From Antedon mediterranea (Eukaryota > Echinodermata > Crinoidea > Comatulida > Antedonidae): a stretch of DNA of 64,000 nt. This document shows positions 29,149-64,000 of the stretch, in pieces. Under the pieces are notes generated by a model. The model did not search any database and was not told the DNA's origin. It saw only the letters and a program-made list of their open reading frames with translations. The position numbers and the translations under genes were made by a program. Each line of letters starts with the position of its first letter. The first letter of the stretch is position 1. The DNA lies in the NCBI RefSeq assembly GCF_964355755.1, contig NC_092670.1:26525795-26589794 (forward strand), in the 5' to 3' direction.

Positions 29149-30156
29149 GTTTTGATCATTCATGCAAAGGTTTCCATCATCTTTAGCGTTGTTACAGCGG
29201 CATAAAGCTGTACATGGTAGTTTTGACTTCTTGCACCTACATCTATTGGTTATGCATCGTGTTTTGCGTCCACAATAAATCATCTCTAACGAAAGAGTAG
29301 GAATAGCTTCATTTTTCAGAAGCACTGGTTGAAGTTTACCATTAGATAGCTCCCAACCAAAATCTGTTGGTGATGGCAAATGCTGGATATTGGCGATACA
29401 GCTTTTTTCCATACGAGTGCTTGGAAGTGTGCTCTTTTTATATGTTGGTGCACTGCATAGCTTGTTGGAGGTAATGCCCCTGGTTTGTTTTTTTTTTAAA
29501 CATGGCATGCCAAACTTCATTGGTACTTTTAACTTGACCAACACCGTAAACGTAGCAAATGAATCTTTCCGATTTCATAATAACTTGGTCACTGATAGGT
29601 TTCTCCCAGGTCTTTAATTAGTTCATAATTTTTGTTTAATACTTCCCATGCCGATGCCTTTGAGTGACCACTTAGATATGAGCAGGGAAGAGTTAAATTA
29701 CTGTATGTATGTATTAATGTAATTTAACTCTTCCCTGGATATGAGGTAGTATTGCATCCACTAATAGTGTGGAATGGAATCAGTGCTTTTGCAGAACCAT
29801 CCGGCAAGGCTTGAAAAATGTCTTTTATAGATACTTTCTTTTTTTGGATGTCCCTGTCATCATCCATTTGGATACCATGCTTTGGTAGTGAGACACTAGA
29901 ATCACTAGTACGTCTGTATCCCTAGAAGCAACTACAACTGTGTCGTATCGGACATTGGCAGCATGACAAGTCGCGTGTCCGCTTCTTCATGATCTGCTAC
30001 CAGAGACAACGTATTCGTGTAGACTTTTGATGATTTAACAACTGATTCTTCCATAAATCCACCAGCTGTGACAATTTCTTTGTCTATAGGAGCTTGGCGA
30101 ATCAACTCCTCTGATAGAAATCGTGCCAGATCTGCTTTATTTTCTTGTAATGCCAA
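29149..30156 (-). pseudogene. HEEADTRL/CXC-type protein gene fragment
   Basis: Reading from 30156 downward: a frame with SLVADHEEADTRLV, a frameshift, then VVVASRDTDVLVILVSLPKHG, ALPDGSAKALIPFHTISGCNTTSY, a 55-bp palindrome that adds a stop, SGHSKASAWEVLN, more frameshifts, and finally 29544-29149 with KLCSAP, PSPTDFGWEL and a cysteine cluster CRCKKSKLPCTALCRC...NLCMN. From memory, proteins with HEEADTRL, SRDTDV and a C-terminal CXC cluster are common, mostly uncharacterised and TE-like in marine invertebrates and may contain a PIN/FEN-like nuclease fold; that assignment is tentative. The C-terminal third is repeated, inverted, in the right arm (about 30232-30600). Confidence 0.65.
29683..29737. 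mobile_element. Micro-palindromic insertion, 55 bp, 8-bp TSD
   Basis: The ends CAGGGAAGAGTTAAATTAC and GTAATTTAACTCTTCCCTG are perfectly inverted around a 17-bp centre rich in TATG. The direct repeat GATATGAG lies at 29675-29682 and 29738-29745. Removing 55 + 8 bp restores the reading frame TSYLSGHSKASAWE of the surrounding minus-strand gene, so the insertion is real. hAT-like by its CAGGG tip and 8-bp duplication. Confidence 0.9.
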
Positions 30157-36816: not shown

Positions 36817-37971
36817 GGGTGCAGGTCAAGTCGGCCCCAAACCGTCTCGGCCAAAGTCAAGTCGGCCCCATGTCAAGTCGGCCCCAAGTCAACTCGGCCT
36901 CAAGTCAACTCGGCCTCACGTCAACTCGGCCAAAAACTAATCGGTCAACTCGGCCACAATAAAGTATGGAACGCAAAAAGTGCTTAATATTATTATGATT
37001 ATTACTATCCACTCTTTAAAAAAAATTAAGAAATAAGAAAATAAAAAAATGATATCATTACCGATATGAATAGAAGTACCCGCGTTTTACAAAAACACGT
37101 GCAGGTACCACATTTTAGTAAATCGAAGACCATCAAGGAGCTATTATAGCTCCATGGTTCCACCATTTGGCCATAGAAAAATGATCGTACTGTACATATC
37201 GTTTTTGTCCATGATTTGCGTTTTAAAAAAAGGGGAATCCCTGGTCAGCGAAAACACGTAGCAGTTGTAGATATCGAAATAGCTGCCAAAGGCACAGGGA
37301 GGCACAGCTACGAATTGGTTTCAGATGTTGTCGCCTAATCAAATGCATACACTGAAGAAATCTATGCGTGATTCAACCATAGAGTTAACATTAATTAATA
37401 CCTCAATGATTCAACCAAAAAATCCAACCAAACAATCTTATTACACCTAATATATGTCCTCGCATATCGGACATGTTTATTGAATTTTGACGCACGAACG
37501 AACATACGCACCCACGTACGTGCATCATCATATTGCGTGTATGCCTACAATGTGTTCCTATTTATTATCCAAATGTTCATATATTGTAATAATTAATAAC
37601 AGTATGAATGCTAGCTTATTAATCAATTTTTTGTTATGCGCAATTTCAGTACAATTTGTGCAATTTGAAATTTTATTAAACATAAATAAAGAAAAATTTG
37701 TGAAATCCTTTTTTTTTTGCTAAATGTATTATTGTCTAAATATTAATATTCATTAAAAGTCAGAATTATTCATAGGTAATAAAATGTGAAGAAATATTAT
37801 TCTATCAATCCCCTTCTTTTGCACCTTTTGCATTCCATACTTTAACGGGACCGAGTTGACCGATTATTTTTTGGCCGAGTTGACGCGAGGCCGAGTTGAC
37901 TTGAGGCCGAGTTGACTTGGGGCCGACTTGACTTTGGCCGAGACGGTTTAGGGCCGACTTGGATCGAAATC
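36817..37971. mobile_element. Foldback element with minisatellite arms, 8-bp TSD
   Basis: The left arm (36817-36965) repeats 16-17 bp words of the type CAAGTCGGCCCC and CAAGTCAACTCGGCCTC; the right arm (37840-37971) carries the inverse (GAGGCCGAGTTGACTTG). The direct repeat GCTAAATT lies at 36809-36816 and 37972-37979. A 23-bp palindrome with CAAGGAG...CTCCATG ends sits inside at 37134-37156. The loop is AT-rich and non-coding. Minisatellite arms resemble Drosophila FB and sea-urchin TU foldback elements. Confidence 0.85.
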
Positions 37972-38407
37972 GCTAAATTCGCAAACGGTATGCGAGAAAC
38001 ATGTCTGTAAAATCATCAATTTAAGGATTTATTTGTTACTTTTTATGTGATTCTTCTTCATAAAAGTACTTATGAGGCCCAATTTTAAGGTGTGGTATTC
38101 ACAATAAGTTGCTTAACAATTTGGAGTCAAAAGGAAGTCGAAATAAAAACAGGTGCGAAACGGAACTAGCGCCCAAAAGATAGTTTGTTGTTATAACATG
38201 GAGTAAACAAGCATTTACGTTTAAATAACTCTTACGGAGACCCAAACATAACAATAACAAACACTTCCGTGTAAATAGCTCTTATATAGAGCCGTGCTCA
38301 ATCAGGCAGAACGAGCAACTTCGCGCGCGCACATCATCACTGGATTTCATGTCATCATCCCATGACAACCGCGGGAGAATGATTACACGAACATTACAAC
38401 ATTGTAC

Positions 38408-38432
38408 CAGGGAGTTGTTATTCAACTCCCTG
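38408..38432. mobile_element. Micro-palindromic insertion, 25 bp, 7-bp TSD
   Basis: CAGGGAGTTG and CAACTCCCTG form the two halves around a 5-bp centre. The direct repeat ATTGTAC lies at 38401-38407 and 38433-38439. Same tip type as the insertions at 29683, 51423 and 63350. Confidence 0.85.
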
Positions 38433-38628
38433 ATTGTACAACGAGCATGAGCTCGAGCATGCTTTCAATCTTAGCCGTAGATAGGCCTACACTCCACTCA
38501 CCATTTAGAGGGCGTTAGGAGCCAAAATTTACTATATTAAAAGTTAATAACTTCAATCAACTACTGGATTGATTATAGCCTACCTGGGCCTAGTTGGCGC
38601 TAATGCAGTTGTTTCTTATTATTATCAC

Positions 38629-38651
38629 CATGGAGTAAGCTTTACTCCATG
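38629..38651. mobile_element. Micro-palindromic insertion, 23 bp, 7-bp TSD
   Basis: CATGGAGTAA and TTACTCCATG are the inverted halves. The direct repeat TTATCAC lies at 38622-38628 and 38652-38658. Same length and tip as the insertion at 50638. Confidence 0.85.
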
Positions 38652-38993
38652 TTATCACAATATTATTCATTAGGCCCCAAGATGATTAAAACTTACGTTT
38701 GTGTCTCTTCTGATAGACCTATTAGGCCTAGAACACATTATGTTTGTGAGCGGACCAAAGATTTTATATAGCCGAAGCGGACATATTTTAGACAATTTTT
38801 TAATTATAGAGGGCGCGCTCTGCTGGGGAGCCACAGAGCCATATATATAAAGAGTTACGACATTGGATTATAGTCACGTGATATGCAGATCAAAATGTGT
38901 CAAACTTGTCTCCATTAATGCATGTAAAGTATAGGAGCAACAAAATACTTTACGAAAGCCTATTAGGGCCAACAAAAAAATAATATTGCTTTC

Positions 38994-44255: not shown

Positions 44256-45545
44256 GGTGACCAGATTGCATTAGCTAAAGTAATCCGGGATTCGAAATTT
44301 CGAATTAATAATTCGAAATTTCGAATTAATAATTTGAAATAACGAAATAAATAATTCGAAATTTCGAATTAATAATTCGAAATTTCGAATTATTAATTCG
44401 AAATTTCAAATTACTTAAATAAATTCGAAATAACGAATTAATAATTCGAAAAAACGAATTAATAATTCGTTATTTCGAATTTGTGAAAGCAATATTATTT
44501 TTTTGTTGGCCCTAATAGGCTTTCGTAATACTTTCAACTTTTTCTTATAATATTTAAAAAAATGTAATTGCACATTTTACGGTAAAATATCGACGTGCAC
44601 AGCGTACAGAAGTACTTGCGCCAAAGAATATTGCGCGCGCGTGCGCTAATACATTATAACGTTCTATTGATTGATTTTGGAACAAATCATCCCATAACTA
44701 CGTCCTATTAATAAAAATTATGTAATATTTTCAATTCATAATGCATGCTTTGATGACTAAATAAAATAATAATGTGTTGAGGATATATTTGTTAATATAC
44801 TGAAAAGGGTATGAACAATATTAAAATAATAAAGGCAAATTATTACAAATGAAATGATGAACGAGTCTCTGAATGTTAATAACGTTGGCGGCGCAGTTTG
44901 TGTAAAAAACACACAGAAAGCCATATACTGCATAAAAATAGGGGTGAATTTTTTTGTTTTTTGTATTGGTTCATTCTTTGATGTATCCTAACTTCCATGT
45001 AGGCCCTAGCATTTATTTGTTTGTTATTACAACAAATATATATATATTTTAACAAATCAATACCATTAATAAAATTATTTACTAAAATAAAAACGGAATC
45101 TAAGCGTTATTTCATTGACAACAAAATCTAAAAATAATGCATGAACTAATAGGAAAACGCTATACAAAAGAGACGCGCGCGCCCTCAGCGTGCGAATTCT
45201 TTGACACAAAAATGGCTTCTAATTTTCAATGTCGTAACTCTTTATATATATGGCTCTGGGGAGCCAGAGCAATTATATAAAGAGTTACGACATTGGATTT
45301 AAGTCACGTGATATGCAGATCAATTTGTGTCAAACTTGTCTCCGTTAATGCATGTAAAGTATAGGAGCAAGAAATTACTTTAAACTTTTTCTTATATTAA
45401 AAAAAATGTAATTGCACATTTTACGGTGGAATATCGACGTGCACAGCGTACAGAACCACTTGCGCCAAAGAATATTGCGCGCGCGTACGCTAGTACATTA
45501 TAACGTTCGATTGATTGATTTTGGAACAAAACATCCCATAACTAG

Positions 45546-48205
45546 GTAATTGTTCCTTCTAACCTAAAAATTCCCGACTCTACACAAGTTACCTCAGACA
45601 AACAGGTTATGGCTAACTTGATTAAAATTTATTGGAGTAACTTGGGTAATCAAACTGGTGTCAATACTTATAATGATATAGTTATCAATAGTCATGTTTC
45701 TGATGTTAGGGAAAATTATATAAATTATGTTAACGATGATCCACAAAAAGTACTGGATGATATAAGAATTTCATTTGAAGATGTTAAAAGTTCAATACTT
45801 CGTTCTAAAAACAATAAAGCACCTGGTGTTGATGGCATCACTAACGAATTGTTAAAGAACGGAGGTGACTGCCTTATTAGGTCACTTACATATCTTTTTA
45901 ACTATTTTGTTAAATCAGAGAAAATTCCCACCGAGTGGAATAAAGGGATCATTATACCTATCCATAAAAAAGGTAGCAAGAACGATTTAAATAACTATAG
46001 AGGTATCACATTATCATCATGTGTTGCTAAAATTTTCAATCGTATTATTTGTGATCGTATCTCAGAATTTCTTGAGAGTAATAGTATTCTTACGGAAATC
46101 CAGGGAGGCTTTAGGAAAAATCATAGATGTGAGGACCACATATTTACACTTAAAAGCATATTGGCTACGCGAAATGCGGAAAATAAGTTAACATACTTAG
46201 CCTTCCTGGACTTCGGTAAGGCTTTTGACACGGTTTGGCGTAATGGCCTTTTGTCAATAGCATGGAATACTGGTATCCGTGGTAAAGTCTGGAAAATTAT
46301 TGATCAAATGTAATGTTAAGTTTGGTGATATTGTAACTGATTATTTTGATGTCGATGAAGGGGTTAAGCAAGGCTGCGTATTATCACCGACCTTATTCTG
46401 TATTTTTATAAATGAACTCTCCAAAATGTTATATAATGAAAATGTCGGATGTCATACTTTAGGCACAAAAATTAGCTGTCTTTTTTGGGCTGACGACGTT
46501 GTCTTGATTGCTAAAGATGAAAATGATCTGGAGAAAATGTTATCTATCGCTGGAATTTTCTCAAAAAAATGGAAACTTAACTTTAATTATGACAAATCAA
46601 ATGTTGTGGTTGTTGGTAAACGTACTAATAAAACTAAACAATGGCCTCTTGTAAACCACTTCATCAAAGAAGTAGATTGTTACAAATACTTGGGAGTGAA
46701 TATTTCAAGAAACTTCTCCGAAAGTATACATGTTAATGATGTAGTTAGAAAAGGAAATAGATTAATTGGATATTATATCAAGTCCATTATTAATGAGCAA
46801 GAAGATTTTAATAGGATTTATTTTGGTAATATCTTGTGGAAAACTATAGCACTACCTTCAATTAACTATGCATGTGCAATATCAGCTTATAGTGCCAGTG
46901 ATTACAAAAAAATCGAAAACATTCAGCTACAAATGGCTAAAACACTACTAAAAGCACCGAGGAACACGCCATCATTGGTTCTGTTGGGTGACTTAGGATG
47001 GGATAGCATTGAAAATACCCATAATGAAATAAAAATTAAATATTTTGACAGGCTTATCAACTTAGAAGCCCATCGTTGGCCAAAGCTGCTGTTGCATGCA
47101 TTATTTACCTTGCATGACAATAATGTTAATATAAAATGGCGATGGTTAAACTCAATTAAAAGTATTCTGAATAATACTGGATTTAATCATGTATTTTCAA
47201 ATAACATACCTATAGATTCAGCATGGTTTAAATCTTTTAAGTGTGTTAATCGTCAAATGTATGAATTGGATTGGTTTAATAAAAGCTGTACCAAACCATC
47301 ATTATCACTTTATGTTAAATTAAAAAAAATGCCTGAGTTAGAAAATTATCTTACTGTTAAAACTGATTTTCATGGTGCTCAATTGAAATTTAAGGCAAGG
47401 TCAAATACTCTTCAACTTGAAAGTAGATTAAGTAAATGGGATATGAATAATACTGGTAATTGTATGTTATGTAAGGATGAACCTGAAGATTTATATCATT
47501 TTATGTTAAATTGTATAGTACTACAAGAAGTGCGAATTTCAGAATTTGAATGCTTGGAACAAAACCTTAATGATTCTGGTCTTTCAGATCTATGGAATTC
47601 ACTCCAGTTAAATAATTCAGAGGTTATCTTAATGATTATACTTGGTGGTGATTGTTCTGTTCTCATTCCAACAATGTCGATTAATATGGTAAACAAAGCC
47701 CATGACATTCTTGATAAATTCTGCAAATCATATCTTAAGAAAGCATGGGCCTTTAAACAACGTCTAACATTATCGAATGATTTTTTTAAATTTTTTATTG
47801 TATGTAAGTTGGTTTAGTTATCTTAATTCTGTTTACAGTCATCAAATAATTCACCACAGCTGAAATAATTTAATCTATGCTTTCCTGTTCATTGATGTCC
47901 CTAATTTGGGTTCCTATTGTTCCTTATTATTTTTGCTGGTAGACACTGTGTATCAAGAATGTGTATATCTTAACATAGATTCTAAGTACTGTATATTCCT
48001 TTGTTCATATACTAATTGATATGCTAATTTAGTGTCCAAGCTTATGTAGGTTGCATTTAATTGGTTTTAGTATTACAGTTTATTTTTAATTTGGTTTTAT
48101 CGAACTTCCGTTTTATCTGAGTATTATCTGTTTTAATCTAGTCTATCTTTATTTTTATACTCATATTTTTTATATTGTATGTTTAATTGTTTTAAGGATA
48201 ATAAA
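45546..48205 (+). pseudogene. LINE copy 1: RT domain and 3' end, 5'-truncated
   Basis: It starts abruptly inside ORF2, at the position matching 62104 in copy 2. RT motifs: NNKAPGVDGI, GIIIPIHKKGSKNDLNNYRG, LAFLDFGKAFDT (motif A), VKQGCVLSPTLF and LFWADDVVLIAK (active site WADD). Near 46303 a 17-bp deletion relative to copy 2 shifts the frame, so the protein splits at 46313; the second frame runs to 47817. A CX2C...HX4C-type finger (CMLCKDEPEDLYHFMLNC) lies near the C-terminus. The 3' untranslated region extends to about 48205, with TAATAATAA-like tail words. It is an APE-type non-LTR element of the I/Jockey group, clade not assigned. Confidence 0.9.
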
Positions 48206-50365: not shown

Positions 50366-50637
50366 TAAATTATTTTATTTTTTATTTTACACGTCCCATT
50401 AATAACAATTATTTAATATTTTCAATGCATAATGCATGCTTTGATGACTAAATAAAGTGTCGTGGATATATTTGTTAATATATTGAATAGGTATGAACAA
50501 TATTAAAATAATAAAGGCAAATTATTACAAATGAAATGATGAACAAGTCTCTGAAAGTTTGTGTCAAAAACACACAGAAAGCCATTATACTGTATAAAAA
50601 GAGGGGTGAATTTGTGTGTTTTTTGTATTGGTTCATG

Positions 50638-50660
50638 CATGGAGGTATAATACCTCCATG
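50638..50660. mobile_element. Micro-palindromic insertion, 23 bp, 7-bp TSD
   Basis: CATGGAGGTA and TACCTCCATG are the halves around TAA. The direct repeat GTTCATG lies at 50631-50637 and 50661-50667. The paralogous site in tandem copy 1 (about 44968-44976, GGTTCATTC) has no insertion. Confidence 0.9.
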
Positions 50661-50954
50661 GTTCATGCTTTGATGTATCCTGACTTGCATGTAGGCCCTA
50701 GCATTTATTCTTTTGTTATTATAGACACAATATATATATGTTACCAAATTAATACCATTAATAACTTTATTTACTAAAATAAAAACGGAATCTAAGCGTT
50801 ATTTCATTGACAACAAAATCTAAAAATAATGCATGAACTATAGGAAAACGCTATACAAAAGAGACGCGCGCGCCCTCAGCGTGCGAATTCTTTGACACAA
50901 AAATGGCTTCTAATTTTCAATGTCGTAACGCTTTATATATGGCTCTGGGGGGAG

Positions 50955-51422: not shown

Positions 51423-51450
51423 CAGGGAGTTGCTAATTAACACCTCCCTG
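51423..51450. mobile_element. Micro-palindromic insertion, 28 bp
   Basis: CAGGGAG...CTCCCTG with inner GTTGCTAAT/ATTAACAC halves that pair imperfectly. The flanks GCCAAAC and ATCAAAC agree in 5 of 7 bases. The mirrored arm copies near 57470, 60720 and 61040 lack the palindrome, so it is an insertion in this arm. Confidence 0.7.
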
Positions 51451-56640: not shown

Positions 56641-58349
56641 AGATTTAGGGTAGCCATTTTTTCCATTTTTTATAATGCATAAATAAAATACTGCGTGCAA
56701 AAAAACGATGCGCGATGACTGTTTCAATCCATCTTTTTCAATTTAAAAAATAAAAGTTCAAAGAAAATTTAGAAAAATAGAGTTGGAGGTCCTGGAAATT
56801 GGACTTATTATTCTTCAAAACATGAAACAAAATATATAAGTCCCTATTTATCATGGTTGTGACTGAGCTAAGAAATGTTTGAAAAATAGAGATGTTAGGT
56901 CCCGGAAAATGCACTTCTTGTACTTCGAAATATGACCAGCTTTATTGTTGGGGCTGAGCTATGAAAATGTTTAAAACTAGAGCTGCAGGTCTTCAAAAAA
57001 TTGCATTTTATACTTTGGAAACATCAGGCCCAGAGGCTTAAAAAACGCAAGCGTAGACCTTTTCAGTCGGGGAAATAAGTTTATTCCTCCCAAGTGTATG
57101 CCTGCGTACCATCTGGAATTTCGAGTGGTGAGAAATTCATGACATACAGGACATTGAAAATTTAATAACTTAGCTATAATAAGATGTTGGCTAAGCGAAA
57201 ATGGCATGTTTTTTTGTTTAGTAAAGGATGAAATATTCATTTTAGGTGCCCCACGGTACAGAAGGTTACTTGTAAATTAAAAAATTGGTGAACATACGAA
57301 CAATTAACATAATTCGTTTTTGCTGCAACTAGTGTAGCGTACGTCGACACAGTACACGACGTAATCGTCGGTAAACTTCATGATATCACGACCCAACGTT
57401 GAACGATTCGTACAAAGGGGTACCGCCAGACAAGTGCGTACCTATAGCTATTGTTTATAGTAGTAATTTAGATCGCTGGCAATAATTTCACTCTGACGTA
57501 CTCTCACGGTCAATGAAACGTCGAGGTTTTCTAGGCGCTGAAGCTACGAAGTGAACGCGAACGAATTATATTCCCCGACAAAAAGTACCCAAACCGTCGG
57601 TAAACTTCGCCTGGAAAATAACTACATTACACATTTTTGTCCCTGGATGGAACTTGATATCACGCGTCTCGACCCAACGTTGAACGATTCGTACAAATAG
57701 TCCAGTCCCTAAGGGGAGAAAAAGGGGTGGGATGTTACCAAACTGGATACAAATTTTTCAGTATAGCAGTTTGGTAGAGTATAGTGTGAAGATGCCAAAA
57801 CAAAGTTACTGGAAATCTGATTTGACCTCTGTGACCTCTGACCTCAATTTTTATATTTTTCTATTATATAACTAAAAATCGCCATATCTTGGAAACGCAA
57901 GGACATTTTACATTTATTTTTTTTTTAAAATGCTTGGAAGATATATATTTATATTCGCTATAATGAAAATAATTGTACAAAAATGGCCGCAAAGGCTTTA
58001 TTTTTCAGTTTGACCTTTGACCTTGATTGCCTAATATCTCAATAACACGCAATCTCAGAGATTTGAGAATGGGCTCAAAATGTTAAGAAAATAAATCTAA
58101 TATTTAGTCTAATAGAAACTTTTTCAAAAAATTACCATAAATTAAGCTTTTTTGACCCTTGACCTCTAATGTTTGAATATGTCAATATCTCGGTAATTAT
58201 TTGTCATAAAAAGTTCAGTTTGGTGTCAAATTGTTTAGAATATACACATTTATATTTGCTCTAACAAAATATTTTGTCAGAATTCAATTGGAAATGTCAT
58301 TTTGAGCTATGACCCATCGTTTTGCATATATTTAGCAATCAATAATCTA

Positions 58350-59700: not shown

Positions 59701-60669
59701 TCACTGTTTCAAGCATTTTATTTTGTCAGCATACTTCAAGCAATTAATTGATAATTAGGTCATATGTTTTATGAGTATCAAATCGCATTGGTTAATTCTT
59801 CTTTTCTTTCTTTAAGAGCCTGATTTTCTTTCTTTTTTTTTTAATGTTATTTAACTTTTAAGTTTATTTAATTTTTTGTTGATATTAAGTGTTGCTCTTA
59901 CGGTGTAGGCCTACCATGCGATGGAATTATATATTAAAATTAAATTAAACATTAAGTTTTAAAAAAATTGTAAAAGGCTAGATAGGATATTGAATGTAGT
60001 TCTGGTCCATTAAATCTATATTTTAGGTATATTATTATAAGTATGACACACGCACGCTTAACAGTATATCCTGGTCATACCTCAAACTGGCATTTCCAGT
60101 AAAAATATGATAACATCTTCTATTAGAGCTAATATAAATGTTTACATTTTGAACATTTTGACACCAAGTTGAACTTTTTATGACATTTGGTTACAGAGAT
60201 ACAGACATATTTAAACATTAAAGGTCAAAGGTCAGTAAATGACATTTCCTGTGGATTTGGAAGAACATGTTTAATTAGAGTATATATAAATATGTATGCT
60301 CTTAACAATTTGAAACAAATTTCAAGAAATTTTGACCAGTAGTTATTGAGATATAGTAAGCCGAGGTCAAAGGTCAAAACATTGAGAAATTACATTTCCG
60401 GTCGTTTTTTGGAAAAAAGTTCTATTAGAGCGAATATAAATATGTACCCTCTGATCTATTTGACACCAATATCATTTCAATTGTCAAACCCGTTGCGGAG
60501 ATATGGCTGTTTAAGATAGAAATATAAAAATTGAGGTCAGAGGTCACAGAGGTCAAATCAGATTTCCAGTAACTTTGTTTTGGTATCTCCATATCATGTT
60601 CTATCAACATGCCAAAGGGCACACTTGTATCCACTATGGTAACATCATTTCCCCTTAGGGACTGGACTA

Positions 60670-61254
60670 AAAGGGATACTGCCAGACAAGTGCGTACCTA
60701 GCTAATGTTTAGTAGTAAGTTAGATCGCTGGCAATAATGAATGCATATAAATTGCATAATAGCACTCTGACGTACTCTCACGGTCAATGAGACGTCGCGG
60801 TTTTCTAGGCGCTGAAGCTACCAAGTGAACGCGAACGTTTTTTACTGTATATTATATTCCCCGACTAAAAGTACCCGTGTTCCCTTCGGTAACCGTCGGT
60901 AAACTTTGCCTGGAAAATAACTACATTACACATTTTGGTCCCTGGATGGAACATGATATCACGCGTCTCGACCCAACGGTGAACGATTCGTACAAAGGGA
61001 TACCGCCAAACAAGTGCGTACTAGCTATTGTTTAGTAGTTAGATCTCTGGCAATAATGAATGCATAAAAGTGCATAATAGCCCTCTGACGTACTCTCACG
61101 GTCAATGGAACGTCGTGGTTTTCTAGGCGCTGAAGCTATATGAAGTGAACGCGAACGTTTTTTACTGTATGTTATATTCCCCGACAAAAAGTACCCGTGT
61201 TCCCCGACGGGGGGGGGGGGGGGGGGGAGGGGGGGGGAGGGGCTACTCTCTGAA
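60670..61254. other. Tandem units and G-run before LINE copy 2
   Basis: Contains the last 370-bp tandem units and a G-run (61209-61242), then the abrupt start of LINE copy 2. CTCTGAA occurs both here (61248-61254) and at 56453-56459. Confidence 0.5.
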
Positions 61255-64000
61255 ATAATTCAAATTGAAAATGAAGTTGAAAATTGTGACCCACTTATCT
61301 TAATTGTAGGCGATTTTAATGGCAGAATAGGTAATAATGTAAGTAATGGTGATCCCATAATTAATTCTAATGGGGAGCGTTTGATAAATTTTAGTATTGA
61401 CACAGGGCTAAATATTCTAAACTGCTCACAAAAATGTTTTGGAAAGATAACTTGGTTTAGACACCCACACTCAAGCTGCATTGATTATGTGCTTTCCTCG
61501 TGTAGTGTCGATAAATTTATACATAAAATGGTCATCGATGAGGAAAGAAACTACCACATGGGTAGTGACCATAATGTGCTACTAGCCTATCTTAAATTTG
61601 AATATAATACTAATGTAAAAAATTCGAATGATAATAAACGACAAGTTTGGAATATTAAAAGCGATCAAGACTGGTCTGCTTACAAAAATTCAATTATTGA
61701 TAAATTTGACAACATTTGGTTTAATAATAACCTTGAGGATATTAGTGATATAAATTATGGTTGGGAAAAATGGAAAGATACTCTTATTTCAGTTACTAAT
61801 AATACAATTGGCTTTAAGGATGTTAAAAGCAAAAGTAAACAATGGTGGGATAAGACAATAGACACTGCCATTCAAGAACGTAAACGTGCTTGTAAGGAGC
61901 ATCGTGCATGGTCTAAACATAATAGGGCAGATCTTGATAAGGGGATGCTTTATGGAAGGATTATAAAATGAAAAAAACTCAAGCGAAAAATGTAATAAAA
62001 AATAAAATGATGCAATTGAAAGTTGACAAAAGTGTTGCCATAGCGAAAGCAGGTGGTCAGAGTTCTAAAGACTTTTGGAACGAATTAAGGGGGCCTAAGA
62101 AGGTAATTGTTCCTTCTAACCTAAAAATTCCCGACTCTACACAAGTTACCTCAGACAAACAGGTTATGGCTAACTTGATTAAAATTTATTGGAGTAACTT
62201 GGGTAATCAAACTGGTGTCAATACTTATAATGATATAGTTATCAATAGTCATGTTTCTGATGTTAGGGAAAATTATATAAATTATGTTAATGATGATCCA
62301 CAAAAAGTACTGGATGATATAAGAATTTCATTTGAAGATGTTAAAAGTTCAATACTTCGTTCTAAAAACAATAAAGCACCTGGTGTTGATGGCATCACTA
62401 ACGAATTGTTAAAGAACGGAGGTGACTGCTTTATTAGGTCACTTACATATCTTTTTAACTATTTTGTTAAATCAGAGAAAATTCCCACCGAGTGGAATAA
62501 AGGGATCATTATACCTATCCATAAAAAAGGTAGCAAGAACGATTTAAATAACTATAGAGGTATCACATTATCATCATGTGTTGCTAAAATTTTCAATCGT
62601 ATTATTTGTGATCGTATCTCAGAATTTCTTGAGAGTAATAGTATTCTTACGGAAATCCAGGGAGGCTTTAGGAAAAATCATAGATGTGAGGACCACATAT
62701 TTACACTTAAAAGCATATTGGCTACGCGAAATGCGGAAAATAAGTTAACATACTTAGCCTTCCTGGATTTCCGTAAGGCTTTTGACACGGTTTGGCGTAA
62801 TGGCCTTTTGTCAATAGCATGGAATACTGGTATCCGTGGTAAAGTCTGGAAAATTATTGATAAACTTTATACAAACGTCAAATGTAATGTTAAGTTTGGT
62901 GATATTGTAACTGATTATTTTGATGTCGATGAAGGGGTTAAGCAAGGCTGCGTATTATCACCGACCTTATTCTGTATTTTTATAAATGAACTCTCCAAAA
63001 TGTTATATAATGAAAATGTCGGATGTCATACTTTAGGCACAAAAATTAGCTGTCTTTTTTGGGCTGACGACGTTGTCTTGATTGCTAAAGATGAAAATGA
63101 TCTGGAGAAAATGTTATCTATCGCTGGAATTTTCTCAAAAAAATGGAAACTTAACTTTAATTATGACAAATCAAATGTTGTGGTTGTTGGTAAACGTACT
63201 AATAAAACTAAACAATGGCCTCTTGTAAACCACTTCATCAAAAAAGTAGATTGTTACAAATACTTGGGAGTGAATATTTCAAGAAACTTCTCCGAAAGTA
63301 TACATGTTAATGATGTAGTTAGAAAAGGAAATAGATTAATTGGATATATCAGGGAAGAGTTAATTGTAATTTAACTCTTCCCTGGATATATCAAGTCCAT
63401 TATTAATGAGCAAGAAGATTTTAATAGGATTTATTTTGGTAATATCTTGTGGAAAACTATAGCACTACCTTCAATTAACTATGCATGTGCAATATCAGCT
63501 TATAGTGCCAGTGATTACAAAAAAATCGAAAACATTCAGCTACAAATGGCTAAAACACTACTAAAAGCACCGAGGAACACGCCATCATTGGCTCTGTTGG
63601 GTGACTTAGGATGGGATAGCATTGAAAATACCCATAATGAAATAAAAATTAAATATTTTGACAGGCTTATCAACTTAGAAGCCCATCGTTGGCCAAAGCT
63701 GCTGTTGCATGCATTATTTACCTTGCATGACAATAATGTTAATATAAAATGGCGATGGTTAAACTCAATTAAAAGTATTCTGAATAATACTGGATTTAAT
63801 CATGTATTTTCAAATAACATACCTATAGATCCAGCATGGTTTAAATCTTTTAAGTGTGTTAATCGTCAAATGTATGAATTGGATTGGTTGAATAAAAGCT
63901 GTACCAAACCATCATTATCACTTTATGTTAAATTTAAAAAAATGCCTGAGTTAGAAAATTATCTTACTGTTAAAACTGATTTTCATGGTGCTCAATTGAA
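61255..64000 (+). pseudogene. LINE copy 2: endonuclease end, RT, runs off window
   Basis: It starts inside the APE endonuclease: DPLILIVGDFNGRIGN, ITWFRHPHSSCIDYVL and MGSDHNVLLAYL. A 1-base frameshift at about 61968 (the overlap ATGA) precedes the RT frame 61968-63374, with NNKAPGVDGI, LAFLDFRKAFDT, VKQGCVLSPTLF and LFWADDVVLIAK. At 63350 a 35-bp palindrome breaks the frame (GYIREELIVI then stop); ORF2 sequence continues to 64000. From 62104 on it is nearly identical to copy 1 at 45546, so both are recent. The 17 bp missing from copy 1 are present here. Confidence 0.9.
63350..63384. mobile_element. Micro-palindromic insertion, 35 bp, 7-8 bp TSD
   Basis: CAGGGAAGAGTTAA and TTAACTCTTCCCTG are inverted around a 7-bp centre. 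GATATAT lies at 63343-63349 and 63385-63391; with the shared C it can be read as GATATATC (8 bp). LINE copy 1 has no insertion at the same codons (46772-46786). It shares its first 14 bases with the insertion at 29683. Confidence 0.9.

Follow-up and report, generated by a model that had tools for sequence, protein, structure and literature searches.

The window, by which is meant the whole 64,000-nucleotide stretch of the Antedon mediterranea genome analysed here, abounds in retroelements. One LINE occupies 62101-64000, and a sister copy at 45544-47387 on the plus strand differs from it by nine substitutions. The named relatives of the window's LINE protein are mostly from echinoderms and a hemichordate (Antedon, Amphiura, Saccoglossus), with one from a tick. 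Between 39130 and 44480 lie two inverted copies of an integrase-core gene, 93% alike over about 1.1 kb; the integrase core (PF24764) is shown for the left copy. Arrays of the palindrome ATTCGAAATTTCGAAT flank each gene copy, and the whole resembles a large foldback element.

The window also carries a series of tiny palindromes, most of them set between short direct repeats, and these are the subject of the present analysis. They are called scars below, in keeping with the interpretation we favour, and their flanking repeats are called target-site duplications (TSDs). A preliminary description listed five with flanking repeats of 7-8 bp, and its coordinates, tips and repeats all proved exact. 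The palindrome at 29683-29737 has 19-nt tips CAGGGAAGAGTTAAATTAC, which define what we call family A, with 17 nt of filler between them; its 8-bp TSD, GATATGAG, stands on the plus strand at 29675-29682 and 29738-29745. The palindrome at 38408-38432, with tip CAGGGAGTTG, lies between plus-strand copies of ATTGTAC at 38401-38407 and 38433-38439. At 38629-38651 the tip is CATGGAGTAA and the TSD is TTATCAC (38622-38628 and 38652-38658), and at 50638-50660 the tip is CATGGAGGTAT and the TSD is GTTCATG (50631-50637 and 50661-50667). The fifth, at 63350-63384, belongs to family A, is flanked by GATATAT (63343-63349 and 63385-63391) and sits inside the reverse-transcriptase frame of the LINE. A sixth exact case, missing from that first list, is a decayed scar at 37378-37408 with the 7-bp TSD ATTCAAC at 37371-37377 and 37409-37415. 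Two further palindromes look like older scars. The one at 51423-51450, again with tip CAGGGAGTTG, is a probable scar whose flanks are imperfect, as had been reported, and match at five of seven positions; the other, CAAGGAGCTATTATAGCTCCATG at 37134-37156, is a possible old scar without a recognisable TSD.

Among 164 perfect inverted repeats in the window (arm of at least 8, loop of at most 40), only the five listed palindromes have an exact flanking repeat of at least 7 bp, while the 53-64 inverted repeats of three simulated sequences yielded a single flanking repeat, of 5 bp. A looser scan for CA...TG palindromes returned 121, six of them with a flanking repeat under a rule of at least 6 bp and at most one mismatch; all six repeats are in fact exact and 7-8 bp long. 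Under the same rule thirty simulated sequences averaged 1.03 such cases, and none exceeded 4. When the tips were loosened to at most two mismatches each, a near-exact 7-bp repeat was found at 11 of 2208 tip pairs in the window, against 3-15 for 17 control motifs, and an exact one at 5, against 0-6. This is no excess over the controls, and therefore the tips alone cannot separate old scars from noise. In a 200-kb sample of the genome taken by position, a flanking repeat of at least 6 bp occurs at 14 of 690 inverted repeats, and two of the 14 are exact scars of the kind described here, with tips CATAGAG and CATGGAG. As six scars lie in the 64-kb window against two in the 200-kb sample, the window is scar-rich.

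Three of the sites (50638, 63350 and 51423) have related copies within the window that are free of the insert. The clearest is 50638, where the related copy at 44700-45270 lacks the 23-bp palindrome and has a clean single target copy, GTTCAT(T/G). At 63350 and 51423 the related copies are likewise insert-free, with flanks a few bases off the simple prediction of one TSD. The 63350 palindrome breaks the LINE frame, and the sister copy without it differs by only nine substitutions over about 1.84 kb, so this scar is probably young. The sister copy also differs by three bases beyond the insert, in having one extra TAT unit, and our explanation is that one TAT unit of a pair was lost. The 51423 palindrome is absent from related copies at 60881-61230 and 60661-60890 (minus strand); a third related copy, at 57211-57710, aligns poorly at the site. 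The scar at 29683 has another history, as it sits in a repeat, and at least 40 places match scar plus flanks at 98-100%. It is one old event, subsequently multiplied by the repeat that carries it. The preliminary description would have counted it as a refutation if every palindrome were the same old remnant at shared sites; this applies to 29683 alone. The 55-bp scar lies within near-identical repeat copies at 29640-29790 and at loci L002-L008, a scar spread by another element.

The family-A tip was followed through the genome. The 19-nt sequence CAGGGAAGAGTTAAATTAC has 391 matches (194 + 197) in 354 Mb, where its reversed control has none (0 + 0); a scan of viral contigs gave no match. The first 100 of the 391 places, in contig order, were considered. 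Two mark the ends of one intact element of 2593 bp, two belong to a single locus (L030), and 17 were left out of individual reading; of these, 11 coincide with copies of the 29683 repeat and six are pairs with its 55-bp spacing. The remaining 79 were read as 69 sequences, comprising 67 loci and two window sites. A second end is present in 64 of the 69, in a 19-mer search that favours sites with one well-kept end, and clustering by flanks leaves 44 distinct sites. TSDs are exact at 32 of these (26 of 7 bp and six of 8 bp), differ by one mismatch at five and are worse at seven, whereas swapping the flanks in 1000 rounds yielded no exact 7-bp match. The 44 sites hold 40 different inserts of 26-72 bp. 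Exact retention of the tip was scored at 88 ends and is 20 nt in 29, 21 nt in eight and 22 nt in one, and never longer. As the donor repeat described below is 33 nt, both the commonest exact retention, 20 nt, and the longest, 22 nt, fall short of its full length. The exception is a nested insert (L082), which keeps 28 nt of the repeat when one mismatch is allowed. Symmetrised TSDs have T2/A6 in 44 of 52 and G1/C7 in 32 of 52, giving a GTNNNAC core.

Five loci lack a second end: two in a tandem array, L078, in which a later insertion lies inside the scar, L094, which is truncated, and L091, a one-sided scar consisting of TSD, 20 nt of tip and TSD. The array (L055 and L056, G000:C1:23594970-23595621) consists of half scars repeated about every 37 bp and gives the impression of a satellite that began from a scar. 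A longer stretch of L078 (L098, G000:C2:16375000-16375800) displays a scar flanked by GTTCCAC that was later hit, at TTAA, by an insertion with GGGTCTTTCACACC ends. The locus L030 (G000:C1:3582010-3582650) has both family-A tips 427 bp apart, with flanks that are inverted rather than direct, and resembles a larger foldback.

A second tip class is more numerous. The pattern CATGGAG N5-35 CTCCATG has 2,207 matches in the genome against 13 for its control. From the first 43 places listed, 40 were read, the other three, which fall in two close pairs, being passed over. TSDs are exact at 31 of the 40 (30 of 7 bp and one of 8 bp), have one mismatch at two and are lacking at seven; swapped flanks give a mean of 0.023 exact. 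There are 35 different inserts among the 40 sites, and two pairs of sites have common flanks. Symmetrised TSDs have T2/A6 in 50 of 60 and G1/C7 in 29 of 60, so that the consensus is again GTNNNAC. Applying 31/40 to the 2,207 matches suggests some 1,700 exact scars of this class, an estimate drawn from the first places in contig order.

Long elements with family-A ends do exist. The 33-nt terminal repeat has 20 matches in the genome at up to three mismatches, of which 12 are arranged head to head as six pairs spanning 2419-3197 bp. All six of these intact donors have an exact TSD, four of 7 bp and two of 8 bp (GGAATAC, GTGAGAG, CTTTTAAG, GTAAAAG, GTTTAAT and GTTCGAAC), and they are 91-99.8% alike over aligned blocks. 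Scaling the 44 distinct sites per 100 places up to all 391 tips, an estimate that again uses the first places in contig order, suggests about 170 distinct family-A scars to set against these six donors. For CA[GT]GGA ends, no long element with an exact TSD was seen among the matches listed for the window and the 200 kb of sampled genome.

The coding capacity of the donors is poor, and no frame of more than 100 codons occurs in any of the six. The longest (L103) has a frame, ending NNQDALENYFSIERSCLGRWENLTVTTY, that matches a P-transposase profile at the NQDxLENxFS motif. The match is short, weak and decayed; it scores 16.5 bits, with an E value of 1.7e-5 among the small set of the donors' own frames, and none of 3160 shuffled frames matches. 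A Pfam search did not recognise this frame as P-type, the best hit being RT_RNaseH at E 0.031, and the six frames of another donor (L029) have no transposase or THAP domain in Pfam. The P-type transposase domain PF21787 has 35 matches in the genome. At the four P-type loci inspected, no family-A ends lie within the 6-7 kb taken, the ends there being of other kinds or unrecognised, and among the donors and P-type loci inspected none was found to combine the two family-A ends with a P-type transposase. In 292 kb of fetched sequence there is no P-type transposase, save a chance-level match at E 0.0071, and searches with P transposases returned no protein named Antedon among the matches listed (120 each). 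Three P-type transposase copies (G000:C1:2823415, C3:37950354 and C8:6208861) have equal scores and a 794-aa open frame and are possibly a young family; the first lies in a 5.5-kb inverted-repeat structure. Elsewhere, a 764-bp element (L016:5693-6456) has perfect ends starting CAAAGAATATATATCA and a 7-bp flanking repeat, GTTGTAG, and is perhaps another non-autonomous P-type family.

The tiny palindromes are, very probably, the repaired excision sites of P-superfamily transposons. An element would insert, duplicating 7 and sometimes 8 bp of target, with a preference for GTNNNAC. Its transposase would later excise it, cutting at the outer 3' ends and, on the other strand, about 20 nt inside the terminal inverted repeat, so that each flank would keep a transposon tip as a 3' overhang. 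Error-prone end joining would then unite the two identical, facing tips, whether bluntly, by way of a few self-complementary bases or with an AT-rich filler between them, and the product would read TSD, tip, joint, inverted tip, TSD. From such a course of events one would expect intact donors that have these ends, joints that vary and an upper limit to the length of retained tip. The order of parts in the scars, their TSDs, their variable joints, the retention limit of family A and the existence of intact family-A donors that have these tips and TSDs are all observed; the geometry of the cut, the end-joining pathway and the identity of the transposase as P-type are what we infer. The different tips (CAGGGAAGAG, CAGGGAGTTG, CATGGAG and others) would come from related element families, the classes outside family A presumably having arisen in the same way, and scars inside other repeats would be multiplied along with them. 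It is also likely, though here our confidence is lower, that inherited end-joining scars from several related P-type families number in the thousands in this genome, that intact donors have nearly vanished and that there are tens of scars for every intact copy.

The preliminary description had proposed that the palindromes behave as mobile units. On this reading they would be ultra-short micro-MITEs of 20-60 bp moved by a transposase in trans. The target duplications at scattered sites count in its favour, and a few inserts do recur: CATGGAGGTATACCTCCATG is found at four of the 40 CATGGAG places, and four family-A inserts are found at two sites each. A mobile unit would share one sequence, however, and the joints are mostly site-specific (40 different inserts at 44 sites and 35 at 40), with filler and trimmed arms. 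Recurrent joints are, moreover, also known from experimental P excision, where the available part of one study records a single short-microhomology joint in 14 of 66 isolates (PMC2895639). Long donors with the same tips exist, and the one-sided scar at L091 cannot be a mobile palindrome. We therefore regard mobility of the palindromes themselves as very improbable. The other suggestion in that description, that they are the joined ends left by elements that had lost their interior, stands in substance, but the hAT-like origin attached to it does not. Duplications of 8 bp do occur, and the CAGGG tips, which resemble hAT ends, also speak for it. Yet at the six window sites the palindrome arm matches the reverse complement of the TSD at only 0-5 of 7-8 positions, exact TSDs are mostly of 7 bp (26 of 32 in family A and 30 of 31 in the CATGGAG class), and the transposon end is kept exactly over as much as 22 nt. 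Footprints of hAT excision are thus extremely unlikely.

A third competitor is internal deletion by interrupted gap repair, in place of end joining of the cut tips. Its products also retain both ends, and in wild-type flies most products of a P excision assay are reported, in the part of the source available, to reflect incomplete repair synthesis followed by joining (PMC2895639); the 28 nt kept at L082, with one mismatch, could be read in the same way. Interrupted synthesis should leave scattered endpoints, whereas none of the 88 family-A ends exceeds 22 of 33 nt exactly and 29 stop at 20, and we consider this origin highly improbable. Chance palindromes were rejected alongside these three explanations.

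If excision and end joining of P-type elements is the correct account, the scars would constitute a natural and dated archive of the repair of transposase breaks in an echinoderm germ line, with the responsible transposases making their inner cut at about 20 nt and not at 17. In flies, the joints left by P excision have served laboratories as a model of alternative end joining; in Antedon they would form an abundant, inherited class of repeat in a wild animal. Target, retained tip and repair joint are all preserved in every scar, and by counting scars one could study the end-joining preferences of the germ line, how far P-type transposases outside flies stagger their cuts, and how excision weighs against transposon survival. 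For those who annotate genomes, the lesson is that short palindromes flanked by TSDs need not be mobile elements. The mechanism is already known from the fly; what look new are the tips, the retention of about 20 nt, how abundant the scars are and how few family-A donors remain intact. No report of naturally accumulated P-type scars as a class of repeat was found among the open-licence PMC papers listed, as judged by title and start of abstract.

Several known systems invite comparison. The footprints of hAT elements (Ac/Ds) are also small palindromes at sites from which an element was excised, but according to the available text of PMC5873905 the palindrome is copied from the target flank after hairpin opening and not from the transposon end. 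Zebrafish Pdre2/THAP9 is likewise a P-type system in a non-insect animal, with short terminal repeats starting CA and target duplications; it differs in its 13-bp repeats (CATACCTGTCAAC) and 8-bp TSD, and the portion of the source available makes no mention of palindromic scars (PMC10983969). Galileo, a Drosophila member of the P superfamily, has TSDs mostly of 7 and some of 8 bp with the consensus GTATTAC, as given in the accessible part of PMC4168063, and so shares with the Antedon elements the dominance of 7-bp TSDs, the few of 8 bp and the GTNNNAC type of target. Its terminal repeats are long and variable, whereas the donors here are 2.4-3.2 kb long with identical 33-bp ends. In those ends, short terminal inverted repeats starting CA, the family-A donors resemble the P superfamily, Drosophila P having 31 bp.

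The closest parallel is Drosophila P itself, here as described in the available parts of two sources. Its transposase cleaves within the 31-bp repeat, 17 nt in (PMC7776569), and excision leaves the donor flanks with 17-nt 3' tails (PMC2895639). In a recombination-deficient mutant the joints of P{wa} read TSD, tip, joint, inverted tip, TSD, and a table in the same source has both TSDs and a palindrome arm of at least 10 in 35 of 66 sequenced junctions (PMC2895639). These junctions, as far as they are reported there, share with the Antedon scars the two TSDs around a tip palindrome and joints formed by microhomology, bluntly or with AT-rich filler, and the lengths are similar, 25-44 bp in the 35 isolates against 26-72 bp in family A. 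The fly junctions are laboratory-induced, with an 8-bp TSD and 17-nt tips, whereas the Antedon scars are inherited and have mostly 7-bp TSDs, tips of up to about 20 nt and other sequences.
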